A DNA stretch of 64,000 nt. Origin: Jaapia argillacea MUCL 33604 (lineage: Eukaryota; Basidiomycota; Agaricomycetes; Jaapiales; Jaapiaceae). The stretch is from NCBI GenBank assembly GCA_000697665.1, contig KL197722.1, positions 376,914 to 440,913 on the forward strand, given 5' to 3'. The translations under genes were made by a program, and so were the position numbers. Under the pieces are notes generated by a model. That model saw only the letters and a list, made by a program, of their open reading frames with translations, did not search any database and had not been told where the DNA came from. Positions within the stretch are counted from its first letter, which is position 1. Each line of letters begins with the position of its first letter. Positions 1,855 through 64,000 of the stretch are shown here, in pieces.

Positions 1855-3563
1855 ATGCCAACCCCTTTGACTATCGATACGGCGACACCGACTCAGAACT
1901 TAACTGACAGGGTCTTCCATCATACCGAGGCTCACCAGGCCAGCGCCGCTGGCGGTGGGAGGCGACTGTCTGCGCGACGGTTCTCTCTATCTGGGTTCAA
2001 GTATGGTCAGCCGGGCGCTGAAAGCCCGCTGACTTTGCAAGGACTCGATGTTTGCGAGAACCAGAGTGGAATGCCACGCGAGAGCAAATCTCGATTGACT
2101 ATCATGCGGATGTCGCCCGTCCTCGAATTGCAAGGTTCCGCATGTGAGGATACCGGGGTTTCCCTGTGAGTCGTTCTTGCTGGTTGCTGCGTATTATTTC
2201 AACCAACTTTACATATCCTGATTTTAGGAATGTGAGACGATCTTCCCTTTCGAAGGGTTCAGCCACAAAAGATCGCCGGGTTTCGTTTGCACCCAGTTCT
2301 TTCACACAACTGGAGATACCTACTACTCGACATTCTCGATTTGCCTCAGATTCAGCTGTCTCTGATGCCCATGTCCAAGGAAAATCACCAGGAGGCACCC
2401 TTCCACCCCGTCGTTCTCGGACTGGTAGTGCCAGCCTGCTCCGTTCCCCCTACCCTCGCAGTCCAACGCTATCGCCCGAGATGGTCCTTGAAATGACACG
2501 CGAAATTGATGATCTCCACATTCTTCCCAGTGCGACCGATTCTAGCTCCTTTGTTGCTTCTCCCATCTCTACGCTTCGTCATCGCGCACATTACCTCCCC
2601 CCCGTGAACGAGTATGGTCAAACCCCCTCGCCTAACCCGTCCTACTCTCCATCCGTTCCTTCTCCATTTATCCCCATCCACAATAGCTCCTTCCTTCCCT
2701 TCGCCGATCGACCAGCTGAGGTTTCCGCCCTTCTTCAGATGCCAGCAAACACAGGACTGGTCTTGCTTCTTAGGCAAACCTTTCCTCCGCATCTGCGCTC
2801 GACGAAGGGTTCTCAGCTACAAGATACTTCCTCACCTATCGAATACAACATAACTTCGTCCTCTTTTATCGCACCACCTTCGCAGTGGTCCTTCACGGAT
2901 TTGATGACATGGCTCACAAGCATCCCTCGCCCGGGCCTTAGTGCTGCCTATGATGGTGCTATGGTGGCAGATGACATCAAATGGCTCATTTGTATCCGGG
3001 ACACTGTTATGCCAAGGAGCGAGGCTGTGTGGGTCCGGTTGGCATCTGTTTTAGGGGTCCCATTGGATGTTAACTTGGATGCAATGATGCGTGATACGAC
3101 CTCCGAGACGGGTTCCTTTGGTGACGAAGGAATTATTGAAAGTCCAGTGAATACTGGAGGTGAGACATGATTCTCCCTGTCTAACGTTCACCGCTGACGA
3201 ACTGTTTCAGATGCTGATATTTGCATCGAGTCGTTGCATTTGTCACCTGCTTCAAATGGAGACGAGTCAGACGTGGTGGACAGTTCGTCTTCTCTATTGA
3301 CTGACCTAGCAACTTGCGGCCTCCGAATCTCCGCCTTTACATCTGATAAAGATTCAGCTGGCGATCCTCCAGACTATCATGCATCAATCGGAAGTAGTCG
3401 ACAGGAGCAAAGATCATCGTGGTTGGAGGCGAATTCCAGCCTCTCCATAACTCATCCCGTCGACAACGTAGATTGCCCACCAGAGGTTGTTAGGCGTCGG
3501 AGGCGTAGTTCTTCTCTCTTCCCTGCTGCTTCTTTCATTCTTGAGTCGCAGCTTGGTGGATAA
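1855..3563 (+). CDS. Uncharacterised serine/proline-rich protein, 3 exons
   Basis: Exons 1855-2165, 2228-3159 and 3211-3563 join in phase into about 531 residues. The donor at 2166 is GTGAGT and the acceptors TTTTAG and TTTCAG. The N-terminal half is low-complexity and basic, with motifs such as RRFSLSGFKYGQP and KDRRVSFAPSSF that look like disordered phosphorylation targets. Around residues 330-400 there is a more ordered stretch (WSFTDLMTWLTSIPRPGLSA, then IKWLICIRDTVMPRSEAVW) that could be a small helical domain. The C-terminus ends in a run of arginines (RRRRRSSSLF). I recognise no catalytic motif, membrane span or signal peptide. It may be a conserved fungal protein of unknown function. 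The first ATG in the phase-compatible frame was taken as the start. Confidence 0.7.
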
Positions 3564-3951
3564 GGTCGGGTCGGGCCTCAGGGGGCTTCAATTTTTATGT
3601 TTGATTTATACGCTCGTGTTGGTAAACGAAAACGATATCGATGAAAGTACTTTCGCTAGTTATCGTTCCATCCATAACCCTCGTATTTCACGCGTAGTCG
3701 GTTCCAAGGGATTCTCATCTGTGCAATTTACATGTTATGGATCATCGGAAACATTGGGTTCCTCACGGAAGAGGTACATACATTTTGAGAGAGCCTTATG
3801 GGCATAAAAAAGGCCGTCCATATCCTACAACGTCATTACCAAGAAAATATCGCAATAAAAATGAACCGAGAATAACTTAAAAAGCGTATCAACATCCCAT
3901 GAATCTAGACATCTAGGTCGTGCCTACCTCCCAACTACAAGAACATCCCAC
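3564..3951. other. Convergent intergenic region
   Basis: Two genes end towards each other here (stop at 3563 on plus, stop at 3952 on minus). The stretch is AT-richer than its surroundings and probably carries both 3' untranslated regions and polyadenylation signals. I see no other feature. Confidence 0.5.
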
Positions 3952-5365
3952 TCAGCCATCACTACTCTGAGTATTCATCTGGCTCTGATACGGCGCTTGA
4001 GTCTTCAGTTGTAAGTGGATTGGCAAACTAGATTCGGGTTGAGATTCCAAATAACTGCTCTGCATCTTCTCGGGTTCTGGTGTAGAAGTACGAGATAGTT
4101 TGAATGATCCCGAGCGGATGTTGAAGGGGTGGTGTGGATGGGAGTGTGGCCATGCTCCGCGGGGATGAATGGCGCCGCCGTTATGACCATGCCGATGATC
4201 AGAGTCGGAGGGAGAGGCGGTGTAATGCGCCTCGGTGGTGGGCGATAAGGGAGGTTGGGCGGATTTGGAAGAGGGTGGGGCTTTCAGAGAAGGGGAGGGG
4301 GCGGAAGGGTGAGTTTGGTACCAGGATTGGGTGCGGATCGACGCGGATTGGGGGAAGGGGGTGGGATACGAGGGTTGATGGTGAGAGGATTGGGAGGGTT
4401 GCGAAAGAGGTGCAGACGGAGTTTGAGTTTGTGAAGGGGAGGGGGGTTTGTCGACATCCATGCTGATTTGAGGTGACTGGAGCTTTGAGCTTGAAGCAGC
4501 ACATACAGGATAGTGAGGGGATCGGCTACGTTTTGGATTTCCTTGATAGAGGGGAGATTCCGCATCATCTATGTGGCGCTTTCCGCCTCCATTGATGGAG
4601 GAGACGGCATTGGAAACTTTACTCGCAAGAGCCGGTGAAGGGGGGAGTGAGGGGACGTCAGGTGTGCTGGGTGAGGATAAACCAGCGAATGAGGTGAACG
4701 CCCCATTGGTCCCCCCTTGGCGACCCTCGGGAGTGCTTGGTGTACCAAAGGGATCTGGTGAAGATTGCGAGGCCACCTGAGGAGGTGGCGTAGATGGATT
4801 GGGGAGTTTGAATCGTACTAAAGGATGTGGTGGAAGCGACTCCATGGTGGATTGGAGCTCAGATTGAGTAGGTATACCAGCAAATAGACTGTCTGTGAAG
4901 GAACTATTTTAGCGGGGCTGGGGTGAGATAGGATGGTGAAGGTCTAGGTAGGACGATTTTTGGTGACATGTCTCTGCTATCGTCAAGGGGTATTCGTGTT
5001 GGACATTCGCTTGACAAGAACGGTGGTGGCTATTCGGGGAAGGACGAGAATTAACTTTCACCAACCCCGAACGGCAGGACACACCAAATCCAAGATGGAG
5101 TGTAACCCGTCGAACTCCAAACGCCCAATTCGCGTTGTAACGATAGATGATAGACGAACTAACCTGTGAGCCCACTCTCCCCTTCTTCTGCCCTCCTGAT
5201 AAGTGAGACATCCTTTCGCTTTACAGGCTTCGCGGTGCTGATGTGATCATCCACAACATGTTGGATGAGAGCCTTGTGAGAGGAATATGATGAGCGACAC
5301 CAATCCCATCGACAAGGATAGAGTCTGACGGGATCGCTGGGAATAGCGACCAAGGCCTGAGCCAT
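3952..5365 (-). CDS. C2H2 zinc-finger protein with long proline/serine-rich tail
   Basis: Exon 1 runs 5365-5164 and exon 2 4892-3952. The phase-1 intron (GTTAGT...CACAG) restores one 380-residue frame. Near residues 12-40 there is a single zinc finger, YPCRWDWCRSS..H....H, with spacing C-x4-C-x12-H-x4-H, followed by the basic linker AKPVKRKDVSLIRRAEEGE. The rest is low-complexity, rich in S, P, Q and H, with a nuclear-localisation-like NPKRSRSPH. This suggests a nuclear DNA- or RNA-binding protein, possibly a transcription factor, but one finger alone rarely gives sequence specificity. The start at 5365 is the first ATG upstream of the finger. Its promoter faces that of the gene at 5698. The order of finger then tail is seen directly; the role is inferred. 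Confidence 0.8.
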
Positions 5366-20049: not shown

Positions 20050-23000
20050 ATGCTCCGTCGCGGCGCTCAGCCGTCATCCAATTCTCTCAGTCCTCTCAAC
20101 CCTCCCCAAGATCCATCCTCCTCAAATCAATCTTTCCACATCTTCCCGCGTTCCACGTCTCCAGGAACCACAGGCATCACCGGATTCCTTTCAAAACCTT
20201 CCAAATGGTTCAATCGTAGCGTTTCTGCTTCGAGGCAGAATTCGATGGCGAGTGAGCCCAGGAGTAGTACGAGCTCCGCGATGGCTGGCCCTGGAGGCGG
20301 GAGAAAGGCAAAGATATCGCACCCGACCGATCCGAGACCCATCTTACCGACTCTTAAGAGTGATTCGTACGTTGGTGGGGGAAGTCGGTGAGTTTATGCC
20401 TTTCTTGAATCTTTTTATGGGCGCGTGAGTCGCCTGGTTGCATGGGTCCTTGATGGCCTTATGTGCCATTCACACCTCGGGGTTATGCCTACGATGGGAA
20501 TCTATATGTTGACCAATGCGATCTTTGGTGTATGCATGTGAACCTGCAGTCGGTGGTAATATGATGGGATCAGTCTTCACGACCACACGACCCCTCAATC
20601 TCCATCCGAACTCAATGGGGATCGCTTCCATTTACTCTCTAGTTTGCTTGTCATCAGCTCACTAATAATTATACATCTTTCCATAGATCCGTGCTCGACC
20701 TATCTCTGCAACGAACAACGACCACACAAGATGCACCTTCCTTCCCGTCTCCCTCCTCACCGTCCTCTCCTCGCCCCTCCAACGTCGGAGGTCTTGGAGA
20801 TCTACGCAACATCTCACGAAAGGGTTGGTCAAGATCTGCTGATGATTTGAGTACTTTCGCCCCTCCTTCGCCGACGTCACCCAGAGGCTCAAGAGACGGC
20901 CGAGACGGCAGTACCGCGTCGTTTACCGCAAGAGTGGAGCAATATCGGAACAGAAGTGCGAGTAACTGCAGCGGACCTCCAGCCCTTCACGTTCAGACCT
21001 CCACGTCTGGTTCATCATCCTATCACTCCATGTCTCCTTCTCCATCTAATGTTCACCCGCATTCCACTCCTAACTCCCACACCGGTCATGGGTCTGTGCG
21101 CAGTCAACATGCCTTCCCCAGCAGTTTGCCAACTACTCCAACGTCGGGGTCACCCCCTCAGCACGGCTCTGCTTTGTCAAGCTCTCCGGGCTTGTCTCCA
21201 TCGCCCGTGCATACCCGGTCACACTCATTCACTCCTCGTCAACCATCTAAACTAGCAGTGCCTCAACCCGGGGCCGCTCTGAGTCCTCCGAGTCCCAAGA
21301 GGAAGGGGTCCTTTTCTGTGGATAGAGAAGTGGATGTACCAAAGGAGAGGGAGAGAGAGGCCAAAGGGAAGGAGCGGGAAAAGGAGAAGGAACGTGAATG
21401 GGAGAGGGAGAGAAGTGATGCTATACAAGGCCGCGGTGGGTTTCCTCTACGGGGTGGCCGACCTGGTGGGATCCCTCCAAGGGAGAGTGCAGCAAATATG
21501 TTGTCTCCGCCGACCATAATCGAACCCCCAGGCCACGAGCAAATTCCAGAAGGAGAAGATATAGAAATGTCTTCCTCGATGGCGATGTCAAAAAGGTCCT
21601 CTCAAATAGTCTACCACTCTGGCTTCGTCAATCGCCTTACGGACTTTTCTGTTCCTTCCGCCCAAGGCTCTAACTTGAGTTTGAGCAAGGGATGGAAGCC
21701 GTACAAGGTTATCATGAAGGGGACCAAGTTGCACTTCTACAAGCCACCTAGTGATAGGATTGGAGCTGTGAAGGATTTGTTCCCGATTGAACTTGTGCCA
21801 GCTATCGAGCAAGAGGTTGAGGATATCCCTGTAGACGCACCTGCGTCGGGTGTGACTGGTAGAGAGAGGGGAGATTCAGCGCCAGGACGGAAGCGGAGGG
21901 CATTTTGGGGGAGACGAACTCATCCGGAGCTTGTTCTTGCTCAGGATGGCGCTGGTATCGAGAGAGGAACATTGGAGGCGCTCGTGCACGAAGCCGTATT
22001 TGGAACGACTTTCGATAACCCATCATCTCCTTCTACAGATGATAACCACGAGGAGCCCGTCGATGATTCGTCGAGATTGAACCGAAAGATAGCTTGGCAA
22101 GACTTTGCATCCTCGGTGGCTCTCTGTCTTCCTTCACTTGCTGGACGAGGCAAGTTTGAAGTTGAGTTCGTTCGGTGTTGCGACTACTTTGTCGGTGGTG
22201 CGGAGGGAAGTGTGAGGGAAGAGTGTAGAGGAAGGGTTGAATGGTTGGCGGAAGAGTACGTGAGGTTTCATGGGGCTCCTGTGGGCGATAGCGCTTGGGA
22301 GAACTTCAGGAAAGAGACGATTCCGAACTTCTCAACTGATGCAGCGCAAGATGCGATCCTTCCCGGTGTCCCCACGTCGTCTTCTGTCCAGGGACTATTC
22401 GTTCCTTCACCTCAGCCTGGTGGGGTTTCCCCCGAAATGAATGGTCGGAATGAGTTTTCTCCGAATTTGGGAACGTTCTCTCCAAGACCAGGGCAAGGTG
22501 ATAGGATGGGCAGCATCTCGGACGCCCTACATTCCAATGGCGACGACTGCAATCCTCAGGCACATGAGGACCCATTCACAACTAGGGTGTCCCCAACTCT
22601 CCCACCGAGGTTATCGGGTGATTCTGGAGCCGAACGCTCGAAAGATTCCCCTCCTGCCAAGTCGTTTGTTCCTGCAGCTGTTTGGGCTGTCTTGGATCGG
22701 GACGGACTAACAAGAGAGACGCTCCTTCACCTCGACCCTAATCTGGTGGCCAAGAGTCTCCTTTTGTTCCACCGAAATGCACTCAAGATCACCACTGACG
22801 GACTTCTGGCAGAGGTATATCCTTTCACTGAAGCCAAGTCCGAGGGCCCCACTCCCACAGTTACTCCATCGCCATTGTTCGGCAGCGATGAAGTCCCTCA
22901 TTGGCTCACAAAATTGATACTTACCCAACTCCTTGCTTCTGAGGGCGCTTCACGCCACGCAGCAAACTCCAGCTCCGCCACTGGCTCTCGTAGTTCAGAC

Positions 23001-26000
23001 GACAGGAACCTTCAAACCTCCCGTACGCATTCGAGATCTGAGGTAATATCTGCTTGGGCGAAGATTGGCGAGGCGTGTAGACTGATAGGAGATGAATGCT
23101 CATGGCGGGCAGTCATCGCTGCTCTGTGTTCACGGCCTATTGCTAGGCTTGAGAAGGCGTGGAAGAGGGTGGATCCTGTGGCATGGGCCGCTGTTGAGTC
23201 ATGGGTATATCCGGGCCAGGGTGGTGAAGCTGTAGATGCAAAGGAACCTCGAATGACACCGTGGGGCGGCGACGTGAAGGAGCGGATCAAGGCTGCGTTC
23301 GAGAAGGCCAAATGCAGCAGCGAATCGGATGAGGAATGGAATGTGCCACCTCTTATTTCGGTGAAGCATGATTATGAGCTTGTCCGGACCTCGTTCTCGT
23401 TGTGTTCTGCGAAGCCAGACATAGGTGAGAGCACTGAGGATGTTTCGCGGTTGGTAAGCTTGTGGGAGGATATTTCCGTTGGTGTTGCTGGAGGAGCAGG
23501 GAAATTGCTTCGGTCCGTCTTCTAGGTATTCATTCGACCTCCAAATCCACTGACCACTTCTGTCCAGTGTCGATCAATTTATGTCTCTCTCGCTCGCCGC
23601 CGAGCCTCGCCGTAAAGGGCTTTTTGAACCGTATTTCTGGACAAGGGCTGCTTCGGCAAACGGACAGACCTTCAATCCGCTGGCCCCTCTCTTGCTTGTT
23701 GAACCCTTACCTTCTTTCTCTCTCATCGACCGTTCACTCCTCGCTCGAAGCCGCATAGAGAGTGGCCCTTCTCCGGTTACATTGCGTGACACATACATTT
23801 TTGGATTGTTACGCTCCGATGCGCCGACTCGACGCCGAAGTCTTGACCCCTCGCGAAAACCCGATATTTCTCTCGGAAATACTGGGAAGGATTTGGGTGG
23901 TACAACAATTCCAGTTTATGAAGGCGAGCTGATACTCGTCATCCAACCTTGGAACGGAGAACCGTCCTCTCGTCCCACCTCTCGTGCCCCATCACGGCCA
24001 CCAAGCTCAATAATTGACAACCCGCTCGAGAGATCTCCTGCTCGAACTCCTTCAATCCGAGTGAAACCTGGTTCCTCCCAAGGACTCGACCGAAAGGCCA
24101 GTCTTGCAAGACGGAACTCCCTACCTACTATCTCACAACGGACGAACCCTGTCGTAGCAGAGGTTTCTTCCGACCGTCCGCTGCGAGCAGTTGTGAAGGC
24201 CGGTACATTGGATCGCCTTGTTGACGTCCTGTCGCATGGCCTTCCGGGCGTCTCCGTGTCCGTCTCCGATGATAATGGAGAAATGCCCCTTAGAGAGGGC
24301 AAGACAAGGGAACTTCGAATCGATCGAGAGGAGTTCGCGAAAGTTTGGTGGAACGTTTTTCGAACATTTGTGACGCCTTTGGTGTTTTTCGAGGTGAGAC
24401 ACTCTTCTACATGTCACTTGTATATTCTGACTTGATTATACCTTAGCTCCTCCTAAAGCGCTATTTCAGCGCTAATACCAAAGGTGACCTTGGTTCGATA
24501 CCAAATGCTCTTCGGATGATTCAGACTCGTTCGGAACTTCTGGAAACGATTAAAGACTGGTTCGAGTCTGGTGGCGGCGCACAAGACATACTCGACGACC
24601 TGCAGTTGTACACCGGTATGCGGTCGTTCCTCACCGGCAATGCTGAGCAAACACAACCGCAAACCGCTGCCTTCGAGGACCACAGCGTTCTGCAAGCCTG
24701 GCACACCTTGGATGAGCACAGAAAGTCGCTTGTATCACTATTTCTGTCACAGACTATGAGACCCCAGACTCGTCCAGTGCCAGCACCTCAGCCATCCAGC
24801 ACTGGTGTTGGCGCGCGCCACTTCACCAAGGATGCGCCCGATGTCGATAATATCGACGCACAAGATTTTGTGGACAATCTCGATTCGATGGCGGCGGCTG
24901 TCTTCAATAATGTCTCCGAAGAAGTATGCTCATTTTATAACCGTCACATCTAAATTTCATACTCACTTCGGCACGTTTAGGATCTATTTGTGACAGCAGA
25001 TTTACTTGAAGTTCAGACTGCAGATCGTCTGGGATGGTTTTTACCTCCTCAATTCACGCAACCCGCAGATGAAACGGACCTACAAACAATTCATTCGCAC
25101 ATCTTGAACTGTGAACCATCGGATATGATTTCGGAGCTCACGCACGACGCTTTTTATCGCCTCCTTCCTCCGAGCATTCGCAGCTGCGTCCGCGCTTTCA
25201 CTATCTTGCACAAGTGGCTCGTAGCCAAGTTAGTTGCTCCAAAATTGGGCCTTCGAGCCCGTCAGGCCCGTATGGAGTTATACCTCCGAGCCATTGAGAT
25301 GGCTCGTTTCCAAAGCGCCGACATGTGTGCGCCCCCTGTTCCTTTGGCTGAACGACCTTGCGTAAGGTCGTTTGTGGAGGCGGCTCTTACATCTGCTGTT
25401 CTCAGCGTTGAAAGCCGGCTGCATGTTGCCGCTTGGCAGGGAGTCGCCGTGAACCGTGGGGTCACCTGCGAATCATTGCCGTTGATGTTGAATACACCTG
25501 CATTGAAGACGCAGAACTGTAAAGACTCTCTCACCGTAGATCTCGGTTGGCTTATTGAGCGAATGGTCGAAGTCATCAGCGTCCCTGACATATTGAATGC
25601 CTCGAACGAGGGCCAAACCTTGGTGAATTTTGAGAAGCGCAGGTATGGTGACCGATTATCCTTGACTATGTCACCTCGAACTCACGACTCGACAGGTTCT
25701 TGTGCGGCATCATTACCAACACAACCTCCAAAGCCACGCCGAGACATTGTAGACGTCGCCGCGCAGTTGACCGCCGAGATTTCGAACGCTTGAATGTTGT
25801 TGAAAGAGAGGTTAACCTGGTAGAGTTCGACTACCGCGGCATCAAGGACGAGGCCTATCGTGAATCGTTACAGCTCAATCCGGCACTCCCACCTGGAAAA
25901 CGGACTCATCGCCCCTTCCACCGACATGTCCTTGCTCAGCAGGAGAAGAACAAACGTGACAGATATCTCCGTGATCGCCTTAGCAAGGAGAAGAAGCTCG

Positions 26001-27596
26001 AACAACAGCGCAACGATCGCCGAGAAGACTATCTGAATAAAGCTATGCACCCCCAGCAGCATCGTAGACCTACCGCTGTCGGACAGAAACAACACCGTAC
26101 GAAGAAGAGTGTATCAACGGCCTTCTTCCAGTTCATGCGACCTATATCCAGCGCTTTCTTATCCGAAACCCCTCATACGTCAGGTTCGAAGCGGAGCCCA
26201 GCCGAGTTGGATTTTACTCCTTCCCAGAAGCCCTCGTTTGTTCTCAGTGCCGCAGATGCTCAAGTCACACAATTCATCAACATTGAGCGGTCTTATACCT
26301 TCCAGCTTGACACCGAAGACGGAGGCCACTATTTACTTCAAGCCCACAACAAGCAAGAGATGAAGAAGTGGATCGACACCATAGGCCGTGTTTCTAAAAC
26401 GGCTGCGCAGCGTCGGCTGACTTACACCGGCAGCTCCCCTCTCACCCAGCTTTCGGATCATATTCATGGTAGTTCACCAGCCAAGTCGCGGGACCCCACA
26501 GCAGGTGAGGTATCTGAGCTTGTTTTCTTTCCGCCCACTGACCTCGTCATGCTTCTAGTTTACGGCGTCGATTTTGAGTTTCTTCTCCACCGAGATGCTT
26601 CGGAGGGACGACCTGGCCCTATCCCGTCGTATCTCGAGATGCTCTTTTCCGAAATAGAGAGGCGGGGGCTCACTGAGCCTGGAATTTGTGAGCTTCAACA
26701 ACGAGTAAAGCCTATCAGCACGGAGCTAATCAAGCTTGCAGATCGCGTCGCCGGAGCCAATACTGATGTTCAATACCTCAAGAGTGCGGCCAATCGAGGT
26801 GCGTATCCAAGTACTTCCCCTTGAGTATGGTTTCACGTTGCTACGCAGGCGAATGGCTGATTACGTCGTCGACGGATATCTACGCCGTCTGCGATCTCGT
26901 GAAACAATGGTTCCGTGATCTTCCTCGGCCAGTTCTCCCTTCCTCCTCCTATTTTGAGATCATTGCTGCTAGTAGTACGTTTCCTCCCCACTTCCTTGAT
27001 CGGGATCTCATGCTGCATAGAATTGGACGATCTTCCTTCCAAGTTGGCGCGGTTGCGAAATGTCATTCAGCACCTCCCTCAACCCAATTTCGATTTATTG
27101 CGACGTGTTGCCGAGCACCTTGACAAGTGCGCACTCCCTGCTTTGGAACCTTCTATAGTCTTATGCAACTGACTTCACCAGAGTGACCGATTACGAAGAT
27201 CAAAACCATATGACTGCAAAAAATCTTGCCATCGTCATCAGCCCCAGTTTATTACGAGCCCCAGATAATGATTTCCTGGTGTTCATGGGCAACATGGGCC
27301 ACCTCCACGAATTTGTCAAGACTCTGATTGGTCACGTAAGTCCACGTTTATCGTAGAGGATCAACCCTTGCTGACTCGGGACACTCAAGCTTCATCTCAT
27401 CTTTGATGAGGACCAAGAAGCTGAGAATGATCACGAGGACGATGACTTCGACGAACCCATTCTTGAGGAAGATGAAGAAGAAGAAGACGTGGAGACCATC
27501 TTACCATCCGCGAACATCACTAGCGAACCTGAGGACCGCATCACTTCCCTCGATTCCACGAATCCATTTGATGATACCCAGCATGGACTCTCATAG
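20050..27596 (+). CDS. Large RhoGAP protein: PH, RasGEF-like, PH and RhoGAP domains
   Basis: Twelve exons (20050-20387, 20687-23512, 23568-24393, 24447-24923, 24981-25642, 25696-26504, 26559-26687, 26742-26798, 26849-26974, 27021-27126, 27182-27335, 27390-27596) give 2,238 residues. Residues 1-410 are serine/proline-rich, with a charged KE/RE run near 21340-21410. A PH domain starts near 420 (YHSGFVNRLTDF ... GWKPYKVIMKGTKLHFYKP). A helical RasGEF-like region occupies about 1480-1710 (FYRLLPPSIRSCVRAFTILH). A second PH-like part lies near 1890-1945 (YTFQLDTEDGGHYLLQAH). The RhoGAP domain spans ~1980-2170: GVDFEFLLHRD, GIYRVAGA with the arginine finger, VCDLVKQWFRDLPRPVLP and AIVISPSLLRAPDND. 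The tail is acidic. It should switch off Rho/Cdc42-type GTPases at membranes during polar growth. The donor at 23513 (GTCCGT) is weak but is the only phase-correct choice. Confidence 0.88.
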
Positions 27597-37258: not shown

Positions 37259-38449
37259 TTATGTCAGTTTCGTCGCAACCCAAAACTCCGCCCGATAAAT
37301 CCACTTCATCATAGCCTGCCTATCAGCAGTATACTCACAGTCTACTGTCATGGTCTTCTTCTTTGAGGCATCGATAGGCCCGAGTACAAAGCCTACGCCT
37401 TCAGCGACGGCAATAACTTCCTCGAGGTTAAGCTCTAAGGATGCCTGCGCGCCAGGACTCCATAAGAGCGGTCCCAAATTGACCCAAGTGCCTCCAGGGC
37501 GGAGGAGCGTATAGATTTGCTCAATGGTGGCGATGGCGTTGAGTGAGGTGTCGATAAAAAACATGGTCACGATATAATCATATCCAACCTCCCCTTCACT
37601 CCGCAATGGGGGCAACAGGGTTATAAAGTCGCGTTCAAGGAGGTTAAACGTCGGGGTGAGGCGAGGAATAACGTCCGGAAACGAAACAGGTCGAAACAGC
37701 GCGTCATTGGACCGAGAATGGGAGAACCAGTGGGCATAAGGATAGATGAGGTGTTGGTCGAGTGTAGTAGTCGTGGTGGGAGAAAGAAGGAAGCGTAAAG
37801 CTAAGTTCATGTACGATGATATCTCGTTCGCCGTGGTGTCAAAGCCCAACCGCGATATCTCCCAAGCTAGCCTGCCCAAGCCCGAACCAGGGACGAGAAC
37901 CTTCATAGCTGCCGGGGAAGAGGCGTGTTTCAGAACCTCCAAGATGGGCGCGAATATTTCTTCTCGCTCAGGTCGTCCCTCGTCGCTCCAGTCGCGAACG
38001 AAGTGTCGGAGAGTTTCCCGCACCTTCCCTAAATCACCTCTCGGCGACTGCCCCTCACCTATCCAACCTTCTCCATCGACCTCCAGACCTAACTCTGTTT
38101 TCGCGAGGCCAACGATAGCCCTTGTTACCTCCGCGTTCGACGCTGTAACCTCTTCCAGTCTATTCAGCTTTTTGGTATATCCCAGGTCGTACCCAGTTCG
38201 CTTGTGAGCTCGGCCGAGCTTGGAGTACGATGCGCGCATTCTCTTCAACTCTCGTTGAGAAAGCTGCTCGTACTGAGAGTACGAAAGTATGGCTTGGGTT
38301 ACAGAGAATGGTCCATTCAACTCTGATTTTTGACGTTGAAAGCCCGATAGATGTACAAGGTCCCGGAGAGGCAAGTATCTGACACCGAAGAGGGAGAGTA
38401 CGAAGAGGAAAAATAGGACAGGACCATCAGAATTGAAGGTGGTTGCCAT
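37259..38449 (-). CDS. N2227-like (carnosine N-methyltransferase family) protein
   Basis: A single exon from ATG 38449 codes for 396 residues. An N-terminal hydrophobic helix (VLFFLFVLSLFGVRYLPL) suggests membrane anchoring. The N2227 family start is visible as YSQYEQLSQRELKRMRASYS. The methyltransferase core has the S-adenosylmethionine loop MKVLVPGSGLGRLAWEISRL, the acidic partner strand FDTTANEISSYMNLALRF and later YDYIVTMFFIDTSLNAIATI with LLRPGGTWVNLGPLLW. Known members (human CARNMT1, yeast YNL092W) methylate carnosine or related histidine imidazoles; the substrate here is not determined. The C-terminus closes with YRAEFWVATKL. The ATG at 38449 was chosen rather than the upstream non-ATG extension. 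Length and motif order match the family. Confidence 0.9.
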   Translation of the reverse strand: MATTFNSDGPVLFFLFVLSLFGVRYLPLRDLVHLSGFQRQKSELNGPFSVTQAILSYSQYEQLSQRELKRMRASYSKLGRAHKRTGYDLGYTKKLNRLEEVTASNAEVTRAIVGLAKTELGLEVDGEGWIGEGQSPRGDLGKVRETLRHFVRDWSDEGRPEREEIFAPILEVLKHASSPAAMKVLVPGSGLGRLAWEISRLGFDTTANEISSYMNLALRFLLSPTTTTTLDQHLIYPYAHWFSHSRSNDALFRPVSFPDVIPRLTPTFNLLERDFITLLPPLRSEGEVGYDYIVTMFFIDTSLNAIATIEQIYTLLRPGGTWVNLGPLLWSPGAQASLELNLEEVIAVAEGVGFVLGPIDASKKKTMTVDCEYTADRQAMMKWIYRAEFWVATKLT

Positions 38450-39723
38450 GGTTGAAAATGCCGTAGATTGGCGGGCCTCACCCACGCAAGTGATTTAGTT
38501 TGAGGGAGTGGTAAAGAGGAAGGGTATTACGTCGTATGCAACGTCGAGGAAAATCGCCTTGTCGCTGTCCGCCACGACGAGGAAGGACATTTCCTGTTTA
38601 GGATAAACCTATAATGTGTTGATGCTCATGCAGTCACGGTCCCAGAGGTCCCTTACGGTTTTCAGCGATACCATAGCTCAATGATTCGAAGGTTCACCAC
38701 GATCTCTGGCCTTTTTAATGCTCTAACAGCAGAGCGAAGGGACCAAGCAGATGGGCTGAATTAAAGGCCGAGGGAGTACTGGTGAGCACAATTTTGGATG
38801 GCAGTACAACGAAATTACGATAGTGGGGCCTATGATACTACAGCGTCTTTGCCCTGACAATTGCAAGCAAGGTTCATGGCCAACGTATCCCGTCGGCGAC
38901 CATCAGTATGAATCTCATTTTCCTGCACGCACTTCACGGCACCGATGGTTGAAACGTTGACTGCTTTGCGCGAAACGTATAGTACATGTTTTTGGGTTTC
39001 AGGCCATGCCATCCATGGCCAGGTTATTTCAGCGCCAACACGGTAACTTACCTTCAGCGAAGCAACATTCATGGGCGGTGAATTTCTGTAATAACGTGTT
39101 TCATTGGTAATGCGTTGACCAGTGTGGATAGTAGCAGCAGATACAATATTAATGCCAGTGGTGAATACAGATCATCGGTTGATGGAAATATCGATCGAAA
39201 GTCTGAAATCTAAACTGGGTGACAGTTGGGTGACAGCTAGCGTTGACACGATCGAGCAAACAAAGTTGCGATTATTATTAGCTTTTGACGTGAAGCCACC
39301 CCACGCGTCTCGCTGATTCTGCCCCTGCATATGACGGACTTCAGAGGACGAAACGTGCTCATTTTGTCCGATAGTGCCCATCAAACATGCAGTCTATGTG
39401 ACCTCAGACTCTCCGGGTGTAACCTTTGTTCTCCACTGAGCTTGGTGCCGCTGACTTTGGAAAGATCTTAGAAAAGGTACACACTGTACAGTAATCTCCA
39501 TCACTTCTTCGATTCTCTAGAGCTGATGAGCGTAAACAGGAGGTCTCCAATCGCCGAGCAACTGCGGTGCCTGCGTTCCACGACCATCGCGTACTATATA
39601 AGTCAAACCCAGAGTATCGCTAGTCTCTAAGTCGCGTTTTCCCCTCGCACCATTGAACAATTTCTACGCGTCTCTCTCTCTTATATTCCCCTCACTCCTT
39701 TACCCCACACTCATTTTAACAAA
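38450..39723. other. Divergent intergenic region
   Basis: 1.27 kb between the methyltransferase start on minus and the secreted-protein start on plus. The short minus frame 38830-39072 is not supported. The right end holds the core promoter described at 39595. Confidence 0.45.
39595..39602 (+). promoter_or_regulatory. TATA box of the secreted-protein gene
   Basis: TATATAAG lies about 120 bp before the ATG at 39724, followed by a strongly pyrimidine-rich leader (39630-39715). This is the classic core-promoter layout of highly expressed basidiomycete genes. Position and context are seen; activity is inferred. Confidence 0.6.
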
Positions 39724-48144: not shown

Positions 48145-51100
48145 TTAGAAATCGTCGGGCGAAAGGAATCGAGAATGCAAGATCTTCCCCAAATGTGTCG
48201 GCGTATATGTCATCCCTTTACGACGCAATCCAATGAGCTCCTTCAAGTATGGCAGAGGACTATGGGTGAAGGGCGAGTTAGTCCTGTTCGTGAGCCTTCG
48301 GCGATGTTCTGGGTTGATGAATCCGTCGCCCTGCCACTGGATGCCATCAACCGACTGGAGGTCTGGAGTATAAATGCCCAAGAATTCGCAAAGCAGCAGA
48401 TAGGCTTGATAGTCTGCCACGTACAATTGACCAGCACAGAGATTGAGCTGAGCCACCAGGATCGGTTCCGGGGCAACCCAAGATGGGGGTGTCGGCGGAA
48501 TGCAATGAAGTTTCAGATCATCGACTGGCTCCATCGCTTGCGTTACCCTTGGCGTGTACTGGTGAAGGTGAACCTTTCTGTACTGTCGGATCTTGGGAAG
48601 CAAATCGTTCGCCTCATAAGGACTGACAATTACCAGGACCAATGAGCCCCCATGAGAGCTAGAAATTATCCACTGAACAGGTCGGAGATAGTCGTTGAGG
48701 TATATGGATGAAGTTTTGACGGAGGTTAGGAAGTCGTCCGTTGCGAGCAGTCTCGGTGACCATGGGTCTTCATGAGCTCGTCGGGCACCGCTCAATGGGA
48801 GGAAGGGACTCCGGAACGCGGGAGAGCCGCGCGGAAGCACACCCGAAACGACAAACTTGTCAACGTCTCGGTGAATCTTGTGAGGGGCGGCCGTCGCTTT
48901 GGGGGGCCTCTGAACTTGTTGTTCTCGTTCCATTTCATGAGCAACTTCTCTCTCCTGCTCCTCATCCGTTCGTTGATGCGACAACGATGACGTCCCAAGC
49001 AGCATACAGCGGTCGTGGATTTCAGGAATATCTAAACTGAAGTTATGAAGCGCAGTTTCTGACGAGCCTTGAATGCGGATGTTTGGAATCCCATACATGG
49101 ACTCCAGCTCTCTAGCCTCTGGCAGTACCCATGCACGTCCCAAAGCCGTGAGGGAGGCATCGTTGGATGTTGAGAGCTCTTTCCAGGCGCTGTTTCGCCT
49201 GAAAAAGTCAACGCCTTGCTGGGCCCAGTGTGGGGCCTGGCGTTGGATATCGGTGCAAGTTTCAAGCATTGTCCACCTTAACACATCTCGACTGCTGACT
49301 TGTTCAGAGGGCTTGCGGGCGGCTTCCCGAATCTTTCGATCAACCTCCAAGGGTGCAAAAAACATCACGGTTTGGCCAAAACCCAGTTTTCGCAGTCGCA
49401 TACAACCTGGAATCACAGGTCAGTGAAATCAAAGCATCATTAATTCAGGAACTCACCCTGGATCAGTCGATCCTTTGTCACTTTTGGACCCAAGGTGACT
49501 GCAGCTCGAGAATCCCTGGGAAGCTTGAGATCTGTGCCTCTTGTGTGTGCATCATCCAGATACACTACACATTTATCCAGCTGCTGATTATAGGATGACG
49601 AAACGAACGACTCGATCGTACCATCTCGAGTGATCACCACAAGATCATCGTCATCGTCAAAGAATACTGCAGCCTGGACTTCAAGCAACATCGACAGCCA
49701 GTGTTTGGCCACCTGGCAGTTCGTCATCTCCAAAATCTGCGCTCCAACATCCAACAGGACCCTGATTTCGGGGGTTTGCCGAACAACAAGCTCGAGGAGA
49801 GCTTTCCCTGAGATGCAACCACCTGCACCAACGCTCGGACAAATGTAGGAATTGTTCTCTGGTCGCAGGAGGTAAGTCATGACCTTCGCATTCGTACTCA
49901 ACTGATCCAGCGGATCACACTGGGCAATTGAAGTTGGTAAGAGGTACTGGTTCTCATTGGTGCCACTGAAACCAGTGGTGAAGTGACTCTTGGAGCATGC
50001 CATATCCCAGCTCGAAGTCGTCAATTTCTCAGGAAATTCTTTGGCTTCCTTCGGAAAAACGACCTGTGATAGGTAGAAGTCGATGATAGCATGGTTTCTT
50101 TGGAAGTGGGGAACTAGGATCTCTTTTCGCAGCTCAATATCCTTGAGGTTCACTCCGCTCAGTTGGTGTAACCCCTCCGGCATAGAGCTGTCCGCTCGAA
50201 CCCAGCGATCATATTCGAGCTTTGGGTTGTCGAGCTTGAAAAGACGATCAAAGCAGACGTCGAGATCATCTTCAGATAGGCCTCCATAATAGTAACTCAT
50301 GCAGGTAAGCAATATTGCCACGTCAGGATGGCCGAATTCAGCCCGGGGCGATGGAACGTCTTTGGCCCTGTATGGAACGGCCAATAACGAGCGAGCCAGA
50401 TGCAGGCCATAGTCGACACGCCACCTTCGTTCTCTCAGAACGTACAGAAGAATGCCGTGGCCAAACAATCCTCGGAGTAGTAGGAGACTCTTCCACAGCC
50501 CAGTGTCACCGCAGAATTCCTCCATTGTACCAGCTTCGTCATCGGCAATATTTTCGCATTGGATGAAGCGTGCGACAACCTGACGGGCGTCGTTGGGAAA
50601 CGCCTCAAAACAGCAGTTCATGAGGCCTCCGGCCATAACATCTTCTACGACGGCTGCGATCAGTGCCTCCCCAGCATCTACCTCAAGAATGCGAATGGAC
50701 GGATGGCTACCACACTGAGTTGTGGTAACGTCTGCTCCAGATGGATATTTTTGTTGAATGCGGGGGGCATGCTTTCTAACCAGAGCGAAGACTTGCTGAA
50801 TGGTTGTCCAACGGTCAGGATGGTGCTCTAGAGGCCGTGGTTCACCTCGAGTGTAAATCAACTGGAAATTTGATCGTAATATCTCGTCACTTTCATCGAG
50901 GACGTCTCGTGAGTGCGACTCGAGCCACAGTTGGGAGTCCAGCAAATGTTTGGCAATGTTGCGTTCTTCGCTGGATTTGGCCGACAAGAGCCGATCTATG
51001 CCCATCAACTTGAAAGATAGGATGTGCTCCGGCTGTACTACCAGAACGCCGCGAACTTGCATGCATGTCTCGTAAAGGCCACGGACGTGTAGGGATGCCT

Positions 51101-54100
51101 GCTTCGATGCCACCGCTACGGAACGCGAGAAAGGTAGATAGAAAATCTGCCGGTTTGTGAGACCGCTCAGACGTTGGACCAGTAATTGGAACATTTGATT
51201 CGCGAGGGGTTTGAGAACCACTACCCTGGCCAGGCACAACCCATCGGCTAGTGTCGAGGCCACCAAGGGTACGATGACAGATGTCTTTCCTTCGCCCATG
51301 TTGAGTTGCAAGACCATATTCTGCCTCAATGAAGGAGAGATCATCTCCTCGGCCACACGAAGCTGAAGAGGTCGAGCTAAGAAGTCCCCGTCGATCTGTA
51401 CACAATGAAATTAGTCGCGAAAATTGTTAGGATACGACAGTCTTACCTGAATCAACAACCAGTCGGGGGGTACGACAGAATATTCATCTAGGCTACCCAT
51501 ATTCTCCAATTCTTTCATTAATTCCTCTCTGTTCCCCAGCAGGTAGCACGAAATCAAACGCTGAGATCGCTGATTCAATATCGTGGCCGCAGCGAAGGCC
51601 GATAATGTTCGTCTCCATTGACTGGTCAAACGCAGACACGACGTCAGTGCTAACTGCCGTAGGAGACTGAGGGTGGTGATGCGTGGCCAAACACCGGCTG
51701 TGAGCGCCGCATCGTGCAAGCTGTTGGAAGGCGATAGCGACCGGCGTATCAAGGAGAATAGGTGTTCGAAATGGTCAACGCATACTTTTCTGTGAAAAAG
51801 CAAATCCTCCAACGAATACGGCATAGGTAGGATCTCTAGGGCTTGAAGGCTCCGCTCAAGCTTCTCTCCATAAAGTCGGTGAAGGGAGGACGTCGAGTTC
51901 GACTGAAAATCGTCGATTAAAGAACGTAGGTCGCTGGTGGGAACGGCGGTGTGGTACCCTCGTTGTGCGGGGGGTACTCCAAGAGTTTCGGGAAGTGGAG
52001 GGGGGTCAGGAGCGTCACACTCGAAAAGCCATTGAATGGTCACAGTGCCCGATTTTGGGCTGCAAGTCGAGGGCGGGGCTGAAGGAAGTCGACGATGGAA
52101 GATGTAGGCACGAGCGGAGTATGCGGTGGAGTCCCGTGCGTCATCGAGTACTTTCTCGACTTTTTGAAGATATCTGTGAAGGTCGGCGTTGCGGTACCAG
52201 GCCAAAAACAATGGGCGGATAATTCCGAGTAATCGATGGATGTCCAGGAATTTGAATCGGGTGGATGGGCAAGAGGGTTCCTCGCAGGGCCATTGCGCCA
52301 TCAACAAGTCCGTTGCCTTCTCAGCCTCTGATTTGCAGGATGATTCGTAATGAGAGTAGCGTCGACGATTGTATTCTGCTTTCGTTTCATGGTCGAGCTT
52401 TTTGATCTCACAGACTAGGTTCTCTTTGAAAGTGACGGCACACGACCCAGCAATGTCCAGCAATTCTCGTTTACGTGGACTAGTGCCTCTGGCAAAATCA
52501 TATGATGGCCACGGAGGGGGGTGGATTGCACGAAACTGAGGAACGGTCGCGAAAGACAACAACGTGGGTACGAAGGTTCGCACTTGCGCTCGATTTGGGC
52601 CATATGCCATTGCGCACAATGTGAATGCGAGTTGGAATTCGCTTTGTGCTGTCCTACAAAGACAATAAAGCGTGAGCCATGTTTGGCTGAGATCTTGTTC
52701 CATCCAGTCACGGCAATAGGATAGGGTCACTTGGGAGTCGTTCCGAGGGCCAGAAATGTCACCCCATGTCTTGAATGTATCCAGTATATGGAAGGATGTT
52801 GCCAAGTATAACGGCTGACGGAGTATCATGCTGGAAAAGTTCGCCGCAAGGGATTCCTCCTCAGTAGTACTAGTGTTGAGAAAATCTCTGGAAATATATT
52901 CGACATCTCCCGCGCCCAATTCCAGGTTGTCAGTGGGACCCCGTGGGTAGTAATTTGCGTTACGGAGGCTTGCGCGCCGTAACAGCACAGTCGAGGCCGA
53001 AGTGGTGCTTCGGTTCGAAGGGGAATCTGCTGCATCGGACTTGTTTACTTGTAATATCCGCAGGCTTTCAGCATGATGTCTTGCAGAGTCCGATAAGGCG
53101 TGGAACCCATGATGCTGAGCCAGGGGGGAGAGTTCATCCCACCAGTTGGTCTTCTGCATGGCTTTGAGATGAGATGGATAATATTCTCGGATAGGTGTCA
53201 GCGAACCGATCCGACGAAGGAGCTCGGAAGCACTTTCATCGAGTTTCTGAAAGGATCGACAGCTGGCAGAACTCATCTCACGAAGAGCCTCCTCCGTTCC
53301 CGTGTATCCCGTTAAAGGATCAGGGAGACAATGACTGCTGACAGCGTGCAGGAGGACCTTATAGAGCTTGCCACCCAGGCTAACATTGCCCACGAGTCGA
53401 CCAAGATGAGGGTCAACTGCGTATTGATGAAAACGAACATGATTTTGCGACCCAGTGTCTACCGTGACGTGGACGTGGTGAGAGTGCCTCTTAACCCGAA
53501 CCTCGCCAATGGGAATGATTAAACATCGGGAGGGTAAGGTCTTGGTGCCGACGGGCAGATTGTCTCGCAAGACTAGCCGACTCCGCAGCCCAACAAAGGA
53601 CCCAATTGATTGATCCTTGTCAATTACCCTTCCAGATAAATTGGTACACTCCAACTCTTGTCTGTCGTTCAAAAAGAACGATAGGCGGTAACGATGAAGA
53701 TCAATCGAAAAGGACGACTGGGTGCCGCAGCAGGTGGCAATGAGGTATTCTGGAGATTCTATTGGGCGAAATATGGATGAGACCATCTTGAAGGTGGGAC
53801 TGCGGACATCAATAAGTTGAAGTGTTTCATGAGGTGCCTTTCTGTGCATGACTGAGGCGCCATAGGTCGAGAAATTTGTCCACCAGTTATCAGGTGAGGA
53901 GGACCAAAGACTATCCAGTGGTCGAAACTCCATTTCCCCGGATAGCAAGTCCAACCAATGCGCGCGGTGCTCGACCAGCAGGTGCGGGAAATCACCTCTC
54001 ATGACAGCGTGAGGGATAAGTTGCAGTTGTTGGGCGCCTCTCCTTGTCCGTATCAGAAGATCTTCTCCATCTTCGAGCCTGAAGTACACCTGTAATGGTC

Positions 54101-60481: not shown

Positions 60482-63400
60482 TCAAAAGTCCTCCTCTGAA
60501 AGGAACCGAGCGTGCAAAACTTTACCCAGATGGGTCGGCGCATAGGTCATCCCTTTGCGACGCAGCCCGATCAACTCCTTCAAGTACGGCAAAGGACTAT
60601 GGGTGAATGGCGAGTCAGCTCGATCGGTGAGCGCTCGGCGATCTTCTGGTTTGATGAATCCATCACTTTGGACCTTGATCTCACCGGCTACTTGAATCTC
60701 CTGTGTATAGATGCCCAAGAACGCGCATAGTTGGAGGTATTCTCCTTGATTCGCGAGGTACAGTTGACCGGCACATAAATTGACTTGGGCCCGTAGAATG
60801 GGGTCAAGAGCACCCCATGATATAGGGACAGCCGGAGAACAATATAGCTGTAGGTCGTCAACTGGTTTCGTCGCCTGCATGACTCTTGGAGTGTATAGGT
60901 GGAGGTGCACCTCCTTGCTTTGCCGGATCTCTGGGAGCAGCTCGTTTACCTCGTAAGGGCTGACGAGAACCAGAACTTTTGAGGCTCCCTGGGTGGTGGA
61001 TATTATCCATTGAACGTGTCGCAAGTAATCTCCGAGGTAGTGGGATGAGGACTGTATTGTCTGCATAAAGTCCCGCGTCGCCAGTAGGTCCTGCGACCAA
61101 CCGTCATTGCTACGCTCCGCGTGAGATCCGGCTGCTTCACGTAGAAGCGGAAATGCACCACAAAATGCAGGTGAGTTTCGGCGAATGACACCATCGCGTA
61201 CGAGGCAGCGAACATCGGCGTGGGTAGAGTGATTCGCAGCTGCAGCTTTGGGGGGTCTCTGAACTTGCTGCTCGCGTTCAATCTCATGGGCAACTTCTCG
61301 CTCCTGCTCCTCCTCGGTGCGTGCATGGGAGAAGGATGTCACTCCGAGAAGTTCACACCGTTCCCGTATTTTGGGAATTTGAAGCGCCATCTCGCTCAAC
61401 GGAGAACCTCCGGAGGGTGCGTAAGCGGAGTCGGCGATCCCGTACATGGCATCCAGCGTACTTGCTTCCGGTTGAAGCCACGCAGCTTCAAGATTCAAAA
61501 TGGAGGAATCTGACGAAGAGAACTTGAAGTTGCTCCAGGCTTTGTATCGCCGGTCGTAGTCAACCCCTTGTTGAGCCCAATGGGGGATGTGATGCTTGAT
61601 ATCGGCGCAAGTTTCGAGCATAACCCATCGGAGCACGTCGATACTCCCAATTGATCCACGGGTGCTCTTCAACGCGGCCTCTGCAGCCTCCCGAATCTTT
61701 CCATCGACTTCCGGGGGTGCGATGAACATCACAGACTGGCCAAATCCGAGTTTTCGCAGACGCATACACCCTTGAGAGAAACTAAGTCCTGATTAATTTT
61801 GACTAGTAGACAAGAAACTCACCTTGAGTTAAACGATCTTTCGTCACCTTTGGACCCAGTGTGACGGCAGCCCGATAATCGCGAGGGAGTTTTAGGTCAG
61901 TCCCTCTAGTGTGCGCATCGTCCAGATAGACGAGACACTTGTCCAGCTGCGAATTGAATGATGACGTGATGAACGATTCGGTTCTACCGTCCTGAGTCAC
62001 CACTGCCAGGTTGTCGTTTTCATCGAAAAAGATCGCTGCAGGAACATCCGACCTGAGACGAAGCCAACACGTGACGAATTCGACGTTCCTCATATCTAAA
62101 ATCTGCGCTCCGACGTCCAAAAGTACTCGGATTTCGGGGGTCTGAGCAATTATCACTTCCAGCAGTTGTTCCGCAGACATCCTTTCACCAGGTCGACTTG
62201 GGGGACAAAGATAATGATCGTTCTCGGGTTGAAGGAGATACGAGAGCACCTTAGCATTGGTGCTCAATTGGTCGAGAGGATCACATTGAGAGATCGAGGT
62301 CGGCAAGAGATATTGGTTGTCGTTGGTGCCGCTGAAACCGGTAGTGAGATGACCGTGACGCTTCTCTTCGGCAATATCCCAACTCGAAGTGGTCAGCTTT
62401 TCGGGGAATTCTTTCGCCTCCTTTGGAAATACCACCTGTGATAGGTAGAAATCGACGACTGCGTGATTGTGGCAAAAGTGCGGGATCAGCTTTTCTCTTC
62501 GCTGCTCGACATCCTTGAGGTTCACTCCGCTGAGCTGGTGAAGACATGCCGGTATAGAACCGTTCGCTCTCGTCCAGGCGGCATATTCGAGTGCGGGGTT
62601 ATCCAGTTTGAAGAGTAGCTGGAAGCATACATCTAGCTCATTTTCTGTCAAGCCTTGATAGAAATAGCTCAAGCAGGTAAGGAGGATGGCCACGTCTGGA
62701 TGTCCGAACTCAGCCCTTGGCGCAGGGACATCTTTCGCGCGGTAGGGAACAGCTAACAAGGAGCGAGAGTGGTCGAGGCCGTAATCCACTCTCCATCGTC
62801 TGTCTTTCAGGGCGTATACGAGTATTCCATGGGCCAACAAGCCGCGCAGTAGTAGGAGGCTTTTCCAGAGTTCGCCGTCTTCGCAATACTGCTTCAAAAG
62901 GTGCGACTCTTCAGAGGGCACGTTCAGGTTGCTGATGAACGTTCGAGCCATGCGACGCAGTTGACCGGACAAAGGAGCGAAACAGCAGTTTGATAGGTCG
63001 CCGCTGACCACAGCATCCGTGATTCTTGAAACGAGAGCATCGCCGGCGTCGGATTTGAGGATGCGGACAGAAGGAAACCTGCCCCGATCAACGTCTCCTA
63101 TTTCTATCCCGGACAGAAATTGGGGCTGCAGTTGAATCTGAGGCGCATGTGTGCGGACGAGTGAAAGGACCTGCTGGATCGTTGTCCAACGATCTGGGTG
63201 ATGCTCCAGCGGCATTTGCGGTCCTCTAGTGTAGATGAGCTGATATTTGACTGCAAGTATTTCGTCACTTTCATCCAGGATGTCTCGTGAGTGGCGCTCA
63301 AGCCAGTGTTGGGATTCGACAAGCTGCTTGGCGATTCCCTGGTCGTCCGATCGCCTCGACAAAACGGTGTCAATTCCCATCAACTTGAAAGAGAGAATGT

Positions 63401-64000
63401 GTTCCGGTTGTACCACTAATACGCCCTTGGCCTGGAGGCACTGCTCGTATAGCCCGTGGATGTGCCGCGCTTGGTGATAACCTACTCGAAGAGATCGAGA
63501 GAAGGGCATATAGAAGATCTGCCGGTTGGTGAGACCGCTCAAACGTTCAACAAGGAGCTGAAACATTTGATTGGCTAAGGGTTTCAGCACAATGATTCTC
63601 GTCAATTTCGTGCCATCAGCCAGCGATGCGGCGACCATGGGTACGATGACGGACGATTTTCCTTCCCCCATATTGAGCTGGAGAGCCGTGTTTTCAGATG
63701 ATGATGGGATAAGCATCTCCTTTGCAACCTGGACTTGAAGAGGGCGAGCGAGGAAATCTCCGTCAATCTAACACGGGACGTCAGCCTCATCTCTACCAAG
63801 ATCGGAGATGTGCGTACCTGAATCAGTAGCCAATCCACATTCAATACGGAATCACCAACGAAGTAACCAACATTCTCCAATTCTTTCCAAACCTCGTCCT
63901 GCTTCCCAACAAGAGCGCATCCAACCATTCGATGTGACCGCTGGTATAGAAGGAGAGCCATCGCAAATAGTGACAGAATATCTTTCCAAGGAGTTGTGAG
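60482..64000 (-). CDS. Giant DUF3638/DUF3645 protein (copy 2), 5' end beyond the right edge
   Basis: Three exons are visible (64000-63818 incomplete, 63767-61823, 61770-60482), giving the last 1,138 residues. They match exons 4 (end), 5 and 6 of copy 1, with introns at identical positions and phases. All motor motifs are kept: LNMGEGKSSVIVPMVAA (63677-63627, with S for T in the Walker A loop), DILDESDEIL (63284-63255), TGFSGTNDNQY (near 62340), AHTRGTDLKLPRD (61916-61878) and QGCMRLRKLGFGQSVMF across the last junction. The C-terminus (SPFTHSPLPYLKELIGLRRK) is nearly identical to copy 1, while loops such as the segment after FSPL differ in length. It looks intact. The 5' part, with DUF6606, lies outside the window. 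Both copies lie on the minus strand. Confidence 0.9.

Follow-up and report, generated by a model that had tools for sequence, protein, structure and literature searches.

Enzymes of superfamily 2 (SF2) share a common order of motifs. In motors of the ResIII type (HsdR, RadD-like, XPB-like and PriA) this order runs Q-motif, GxGK[ST], DE.[DH], G[FLM][ST]GT, motif V and Q...R, and the same order is found in the giant DUF3638/DUF3645 protein encoded in a 64,000-nucleotide stretch of the genome of the fungus Jaapia argillacea MUCL 33604 (contig KL197722.1; hereafter the window; host genome of 43.7 Mb in 95 contigs). In the available parts of the literature, DUF3638/DUF3645 is presented as a Pfam domain whose gene family is large in microsporidia (PMC5423893), as a domain of undefined mechanism in Tetrahymena (PMC12615304), as one of the top five expanded families by abundance in Hypomyces perniciosus, with nine expanded genes (PMC6627653), and as a lineage-specific gene in Aspergillus oryzae. 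The passages found on Hypomyces, microsporidia and Tetrahymena give the domain no activity; the literature searched, outside which most subscription papers lie, contained no description of the family as an ATPase, and one may exist elsewhere. A reading as an SF2 ATPase would offer biochemists a concrete activity, with residues to mutate, a cofactor and substrates to try.

DUF3638 and the region past DUF3645 very probably form the two RecA-like lobes of one SF2 (DExD/H) ATPase, spanning residues ~2028–2700 of the window protein. The motif set, its conservation and its profile relationship were observed directly. The gene and its core comprise:

57663–48148, minus strand: predicted giant DUF6606-DUF3638-DUF3645 gene of 3,086 amino acids, with six exons and five introns of 47–56 nucleotides
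51363–51374, minus strand: Q-motif-like RPLQ, residues 2028–2031, putative start of lobe 1, aligned with the Q-motif of the HsdR and DEAD-box profiles
50757–51401, minus strand: DUF3638 (PF12340), putative lobe 1 from the Q-motif to just past motif II, E = 2.1e-78 on the open reading frame (ORF)
51282–51296, minus strand: motif I (Walker A) GEGKT, residues 2054–2058
50883–50897, minus strand: motif II DESDE, residues 2187–2191
49977–50882, minus strand: insert of ~300 residues from motif II to motif III, with DUF3645 (PF12359, ~50402–50304, E = 4.6e-19)
49959–49976, minus strand: motif III TGFSGT, residues 2494–2499
49518–49544, minus strand: motif V TRGTDLKLP, residue 2638 onward, putative lobe 2, in register with motif V of the RadD-like and DEAD-box profiles
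49372–49460, minus strand: motif VI QGCMRLRKLGFGQ, residue 2666 onward, split by a 50-nucleotide intron

An earlier note, made from the DNA letters, had described a complete two-lobed DExD-type motor of SecA kind at this place. The two-lobed motif set appears to hold as a DExD/H-type SF2 set, supported by motif order, conservation and lobe-1 profiles, and translation yields GEGKT, DESDE, TGFSGT and TRGTDLKLP at the positions given there, with PLANQM from 51209. Motif VI also lies where it was placed, except that its final codon runs one base further, to 49372. This motif is cut by a GT-AG intron of 50 nucleotides (49456–49407): the upstream exon ends in ...KDRLIQ|G, the next one carries GCMRLRKLGFGQ, and the spliced protein reads QGCMRLRKLGFGQ. 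A regular expression for the ordered motifs I-II-III-V-VI matches the protein and 0 of 2,000 shuffles, a formality, as the expression was written after the motifs had been seen. In the genome-wide search, DUF3638 scored 1.4e-83 at the window core. The motif series is beyond chance, and conservation is its real test.

Conservation was followed in three alignments with bacterial cores, in which all eukaryotic sequences come from one genome. Alignment A3 holds 18 of the 22 bacterial cores (leaving out L059, L060, L089 and the partial L085), A4 holds three fungal and 20 bacterial rows (leaving out L060 and L085), and a script alignment holds one fungal and 21 bacterial rows (leaving out L085). The 20 bacterial rows of A4 are 17–22% identical to the window row, which ends at the Q of motif VI. 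Across the 23 rows of A4 the invariant columns are G34, G36 and K37 (motif I), D167 and E168 (II), T479 (III), D549, G620 (V) and Q646 (VI); those of A3 are G30, G32, K33, L51, D164, E165, T480, D551, G635, Q661, R665 and R667. Motif residues make up eight of the nine columns in A4 and ten of the 12 in A3, the others in A3 being L51 and D551. Among the 22 sequences of the script alignment, GxGK[ST] of motif I, the DE of motif II, the T of motif III, the G of motif V and Q...R.R of motif VI are present in all. The fourth place of motif II is D or H in 21 (one DESQ), the full [ST][AG]T of motif III is kept in 21 (one DGT), and the D of motif V in 21. Q stands at the fourth column of the Q-motif in 19/22 sequences, and the column of motif Ib is variable (QPEH, TRES, SGTS and others). 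The Asp of LDVGA at the start of lobe 2 (fungal residue 2569) is invariant in both A3 and A4 and lies outside the standard SF2 motifs; it is possibly peculiar to the DUF3638 family.

The motifs are separated by 127–144 residues between I and II (230 in L060), 282–353 between II and III (22/22), 133–175 between III and V, and 27 between V and VI in 20/22 sequences (26 and 34 in the other two). Comparator spacings, measured by regular expressions and given in the order I-II/II-III/III-V/V-VI, are 103/31/120/24 for DEAD-box (three sequences), 98/25/232–234/22 for HsdR (2/3; the third has no motif V match), 122/35/129–130/24 for Lhr-like (two), 87/26/147/24 (L126) and 110/29/105/87 (its cluster mate L130) for RadD-like (2/3), and 104/170–177/118/61–68 for SecA (three). 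The V-VI distance of 27 in the DUF3638 family is close to the 22–24 of DEAD-box, HsdR and Lhr-like, a point in favour of the SF2 reading; among RadD-like sequences it compares with 24 in L126 and 87 in L130, and the II-III distance stands against 25–35 in the four SF2 clusters other than SecA. The II-III insert, present in 22/22 sequences, puts a large domain at an unusual position and would offer a handle on what the motor holds. DUF3638 had been assigned to lobe 1 and the region after DUF3645 to lobe 2. This assignment agrees with the motifs, with DUF3638 covering Q-motif to motif II, apart from the end of lobe 1: DUF3645 lies inside the insert, so that motif III, where lobe 1 would end, comes only after DUF3645.

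Comparator families for profile comparison were retrieved by Pfam models, clustered, and named with NCBIfam from one member each: HsdR, UvrB, PriA and Mfd scored over the curated cut-off, and DEAD-box, Lhr-like, RadD-like and XPB-like are best matches below it. Cluster c10 looked like a spurious frame, and its scores were unused. With default settings the whole core gave 76.8% for HsdR over 46 columns, 7.7% for DEAD-box and 0.4% for SecA; without realignment, DEAD-box rose to 52.4% over 122 columns. The lobes were compared separately because of this weak result, which probably came from the long insert breaking the local alignment. Lobe 1 alone gave 93.2% for HsdR, 88.4% for DEAD-box, 77.6% for XPB-like, and 57% each for RadD-like and Lhr-like, followed by PriA (37.5%), Mfd/RecG (28.3%), SecA (2.2%) and the AAA+ clusters (0.2–2.1%). 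In a control of 100 column shuffles that left Walker A in place, run after gap-rich columns had been taken out, lobe 1 scored 56.8 against HsdR (shuffle maximum 30.3) and 51.6 against DEAD-box (shuffle maximum 35.6). An earlier test with 60 shuffles, unused here, gave maxima of 138–146 for each of four targets, probably an effect of gap-rich columns. The lobe-1 match spans ~131 columns, with the Q-motif and motifs I, Ib and II in register. A moderate probability can come from a P-loop alone; what discriminates is the shuffle control, together with the register that runs from the Q-motif to motif II.

Lobe 2 is less distinct. As a whole block it gave 7.5% for RadD-like, 1.8% for SecA and no more than 1.0% for any other cluster; the shorter V-VI block scored 27.1 against the RadD-like cluster, with motifs V and VI in register, and none of 100 shuffles was as good. 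Compared to ResIII-type motors, which yield the best lobe-1 score (HsdR, 56.8), the DUF3638 family differs in its II-III insert of 282–353 residues, its irregular motif VI and its protein length, mostly 3,000–4,200 residues. DEAD-box RNA helicases of the DeaD/RhlE kind are alike in lobe 1 (51.6 over 131 columns) and have V-VI in register. They differ in motif II, which is DESD, DEVH, DEVD and the like in the DUF3638 family instead of DEAD, in lacking the large insert, and in a V-VI score within the null. In XPD and DinG, the Arch domain is also inserted after motif II, a likeness in the place of the insert.

Similarity to SF2 enzymes also showed in Pfam searches. The bacterial protein L064 (9657–11606) is over the Pfam cut-offs for both DUF3638 (51.5 bits against 31) and ResIII (28.4 against 22.5), and on these matches L064 is a bridge between DUF3638 and known P-loop families. 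Among the 18 members of A3, ResIII matched at E ≤ 1 in three and DEAD in two. Of five off-target, sub-threshold DUF3638 matches, the four examined were two PriA, one HsdR-like and one Mfd protein, all SF2 helicases; the fifth is L213.

A number of results weigh against the SF2 assignment. The window ORF matched PF00270 (DEAD) below the cut-off, at E = 0.016, and ResIII was not listed; PDB sequences searched with a profile yielded no significant hit, RadD at E = 1.4 being the sole helicase among four. Lobe 1 reached 0.6% against UvrB, and single-sequence comparators gave less than 4%. In the V-VI block, 24 of 100 shuffles scored as well as the real match for DEAD-box and 12 of 100 for HsdR, which places both within the null. 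Motif VI is irregular: 1/22 sequences has the glycine that normally precedes the first R, and the second R stands at +6, not +7. AAA+ profiles, when compared to SF2 profiles, gave values as high as 52.5% (12 columns) and in one case 49.5% (109 columns), and L064 is also over the cut-off of another P-loop family, ABC_tran (28.6 bits against 25). With the two window copies as its only input, AlphaFold2 gave unusable models, for the 646-residue core with a predicted local distance difference test (pLDDT) of 36.5 and a predicted template modelling score (pTM) of 0.27, and for the 189-residue lobe-1 part with a pLDDT of 56.7 and a pTM of 0.50. Searching PDB folds with the latter model returned 0/650 matches at E ≤ 0.001, and no helicase was named among the best 50 of the 650.

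Some of these points would fit a generic P-loop NTPase, for example of the AAA+, ABC or STAND kind, in which the later motifs are chance look-alikes. The moderate AAA+ values against SF2, which arise mostly through Walker A, the ABC_tran match of L064 and the weak lobe-2 similarity all point that way; motifs III, V and VI nevertheless retain their key residues in 21–22 of 22 sequences, and DUF3638 gives only 0.1–2.1% against AAA+ clusters compared to as much as 93% against SF2 clusters. We regard such a protein as highly improbable.

The likeness to SecA, which the earlier note had put first, concerns motif order, the motif spelling of the fungal copies, the long II-III insert, and a V-VI block scoring 23.9 through motif V (RGTD), with 0 of 100 shuffles as good. 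These features could mark a true SecA-branch motor that shares a more recent ancestor with SecA, threads polypeptides and has in the insert an equivalent of the SecA preprotein cross-linking domain. Among the five best local matches of the SecA profile, four correspond to motifs I, II, III and V and are collinear, and the insert sits where SecA has 170–177 residues and the four other SF2 clusters 25–35. Lobe 1, however, scored 25.8 against SecA, inside its null (median 20.8, 95th percentile 26.9, maximum 28.8 in 100 shuffles), although this SecA profile does detect DEAD-box, at 96%. The insert shows no detectable sequence similarity to that of SecA (0.2%), and the V-VI distance is 27 in 20/22 sequences against 61–68. 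Among 21 bacterial DUF3638 sequences GEGK is absent (GGGK in 17), and one of them carries the R of RGTD. SecA-specific Pfam domains were listed neither in the four window ORFs (E ≤ 10) nor in two whole bacterial proteins (E ≤ 0.1), nor among the families listed (25 of 26) for 18 bacterial cores (E ≤ 1); HMMER filters drop most matches above ~0.1. For lobe 1, SecA as nearest relative was rejected, its score being inside the shuffle null, and the claim of a particular kinship with SecA fails on lobe 1, V-VI spacing and Pfam families alike. A SecA-branch motor is kept as a rival, though a very unlikely one, on account of motif V and the insert's position. On these comparisons the DUF3638 protein is filed under SF2, not under SecA, and it may work on cargo through an insert placed as in SecA.

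The fold, the ATPase activity and the residue roles of the proposed SF2 ATPase are taken from knowledge of the SF2 families. ATP would be bound between the lobes, with K2057 of GEGKT and D2187/E2188 of DESD contributed by lobe 1 and R2670/R2672 of QGCMRLR acting as putative arginine fingers from lobe 2. ATP-driven opening and closing could then move a bound polymer along the cleft, and the ~300-residue insert might project from lobe 1 to couple this motion to a substrate or to the N-terminal scaffold led by DUF6606. Because the nearest profiles are of the ResIII/DEAD helicase kind, RNA or DNA would be the likeliest substrate, for translocation or remodelling; this is a guess towards which we lean slightly, held less surely than the ATPase itself.

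An SF2-like ATPase could instead remodel proteins or complexes, as a switch or chaperone, with no translocation on nucleic acid. The very long scaffold has no nucleic-acid domain over a cut-off (one sub-threshold EST1_DNA_bind match, bacterial), the II-III insert is placed as in the protein-handling SecA, and the motif Ib column is variable, which would suit such a role. The best profiles and the examined off-target matches are nucleic-acid helicases or translocases, and we consider the remodelling ATPase rather unlikely. The common label of the family implies a deubiquitinase, for which the sole support is that label as quoted in the earlier note. No peptidase family was listed by Pfam (E ≤ 10) in the four ORFs scanned, which leave out the first and third exons, and no such relative appeared among PDB sequences for two of the four, which makes this activity extremely improbable. 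The label 'ubiquitinyl hydrolase' had already been said not to capture the protein; no domain supporting it turned up, and the SF2 reading weakens it as an enzyme label.

The bacterial relatives are giant proteins too. In the class of a Microbulbifer record, DUF3638 was over the Pfam cut-off in 5/369 genomes; at E ≤ 0.001 the count was 7/369, the two extra matches being PriA and Mfd. It was over the cut-off in 8/14 genomes in the order of one bacterial hit, in 0/240 genomes in the phylum of a verrucomicrobial record and in 0/296 in that of a Flagellimonas record. Three weaker matches were seen in the latter two phyla, and the two examined were both SF2 helicases. The over-cut-off hits are 22 distinct uninterrupted ORFs of 2,013–6,232 amino acids, some cut by contig ends, in which the core starts at residues 1,816–2,337 in 20/22 and at 1,107 and 1,127 in two. 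By blastp the fungal protein matched all 20 bacterial ORFs longer than 2,900 amino acids within the core, where the match was strongest; the best had E = 1e-23 and 23% identity over fungal residues 2015–2682. Comparison of the bacterial alignment with one fungal sequence revealed weaker profile similarity at residues 1079–1367 (83%) and in the C-terminal part (86%, a value that rides partly on low-complexity sequence), so that the large architecture seems common to the fungal and bacterial proteins. The segment VHLNLLNGQLLVDGKPLGRLPETIVNHPTYARIFGG (window ~54382–54275, fungal residue 1079 onward) resembles the bacterial copies and has no Pfam match.

A scan for 19-residue hydropathy means above 1.8 gave one weak peak in the fungal protein and, among the bacterial ORFs, none in 15/20 and a single peak in 5/20, which indicates no membrane domain. 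DUF3638/DUF3645 could tentatively be seen as a separate SF2 family of giant soluble motors (mostly 3,000–4,200 and up to 6,200 residues) in fungi and other eukaryotes as well as a few gammaproteobacteria, perhaps passed on between a host and an intracellular bacterium by gene transfer. Its ~300-residue II-III clamp might handle cargo as the SecA insert does, within a fast-duplicating conflict or quality-control system. This wider picture is on balance doubtful.

Several bacterial copies are unusual in themselves. L089, an ORF of 6,232 amino acids, is about twice the usual length, with its core at residues ~2113–2812 and another ~3,400 residues besides. Four giant DUF3638 ORFs (L057, L058, L059 and L060; 3,510–3,798 amino acids) lie in one genome of ~1.8 Mb (G230), an unusually large coding share for one family. 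Residues 452–592 of L058 (L058:2791-13320), in the N-terminal scaffold, match EST1_DNA_bind below threshold (E = 0.00037, 20.6 bits against a cut-off of 22). The seven scanned ORFs adjoining bacterial copies have no partner gene in common: they are YdbH-like, BipA, glutamate dehydrogenase, a cation ATPase, an autotransporter, CcmF and one without a match. No relative was seen in viral contigs, and a plasmid search was likewise without yield, as were wider genome-contig searches, in one of which 18 matches looked like chance matches in translation. PADLOC returned only weak Cas3-like matches, of L064, and an NCBIfam search gave nothing useful.

The model of the window gene was built by hand from open frames and GT-AG sites, without transcripts. 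The predicted protein has no internal stops, the stop codon is at 48147–48145, and DUF6606 lies near the N-terminus (E = 2.1e-76) in the Pfam scan of the four large ORFs, which left out the first exon and the 75-nucleotide third exon. DUF3638 matches occur three times in this genome, all in tandem on one contig (C14) at distances of 12.4 and 13.7 kb, and the other two copies are 65–68% identical to the window copy over the core:

57663–57390, 57342–54275, 54218–54144, 54089–51447, 51395–49457 and 49406–48148, minus strand: predicted exons of the giant gene
60482–63767, minus strand: second tandem copy, C-terminal part with the core (PF12340 8.5e-89; 67–68% identical over the core)
G000:C14:453720-454382, outside the window: third tandem copy

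All three copies keep motifs I, II, III and V and MRLRKLGFGQ, motif I being GEGKT in the 57663–48148 copy and GEGKS in the other two. The core of the second copy is at 61821–63767, and its N-terminal part falls outside the window, past the right end; its frame also breaks ahead of MRLRKLGFGQ, as if an intron were there. The tandem copies here and the expansions elsewhere fit a fast-evolving, possibly conflict-related role, and a conflict-related or quality-control function is our guess.

Further genes of the window are found at 37259–38485 (minus strand), 20691–23525 (plus strand) and 25700–26824 (plus strand), and comprise a carnosine N-methyltransferase-like gene (CARME, 1.1e-63) and RasGEF and PH-domain fragments.

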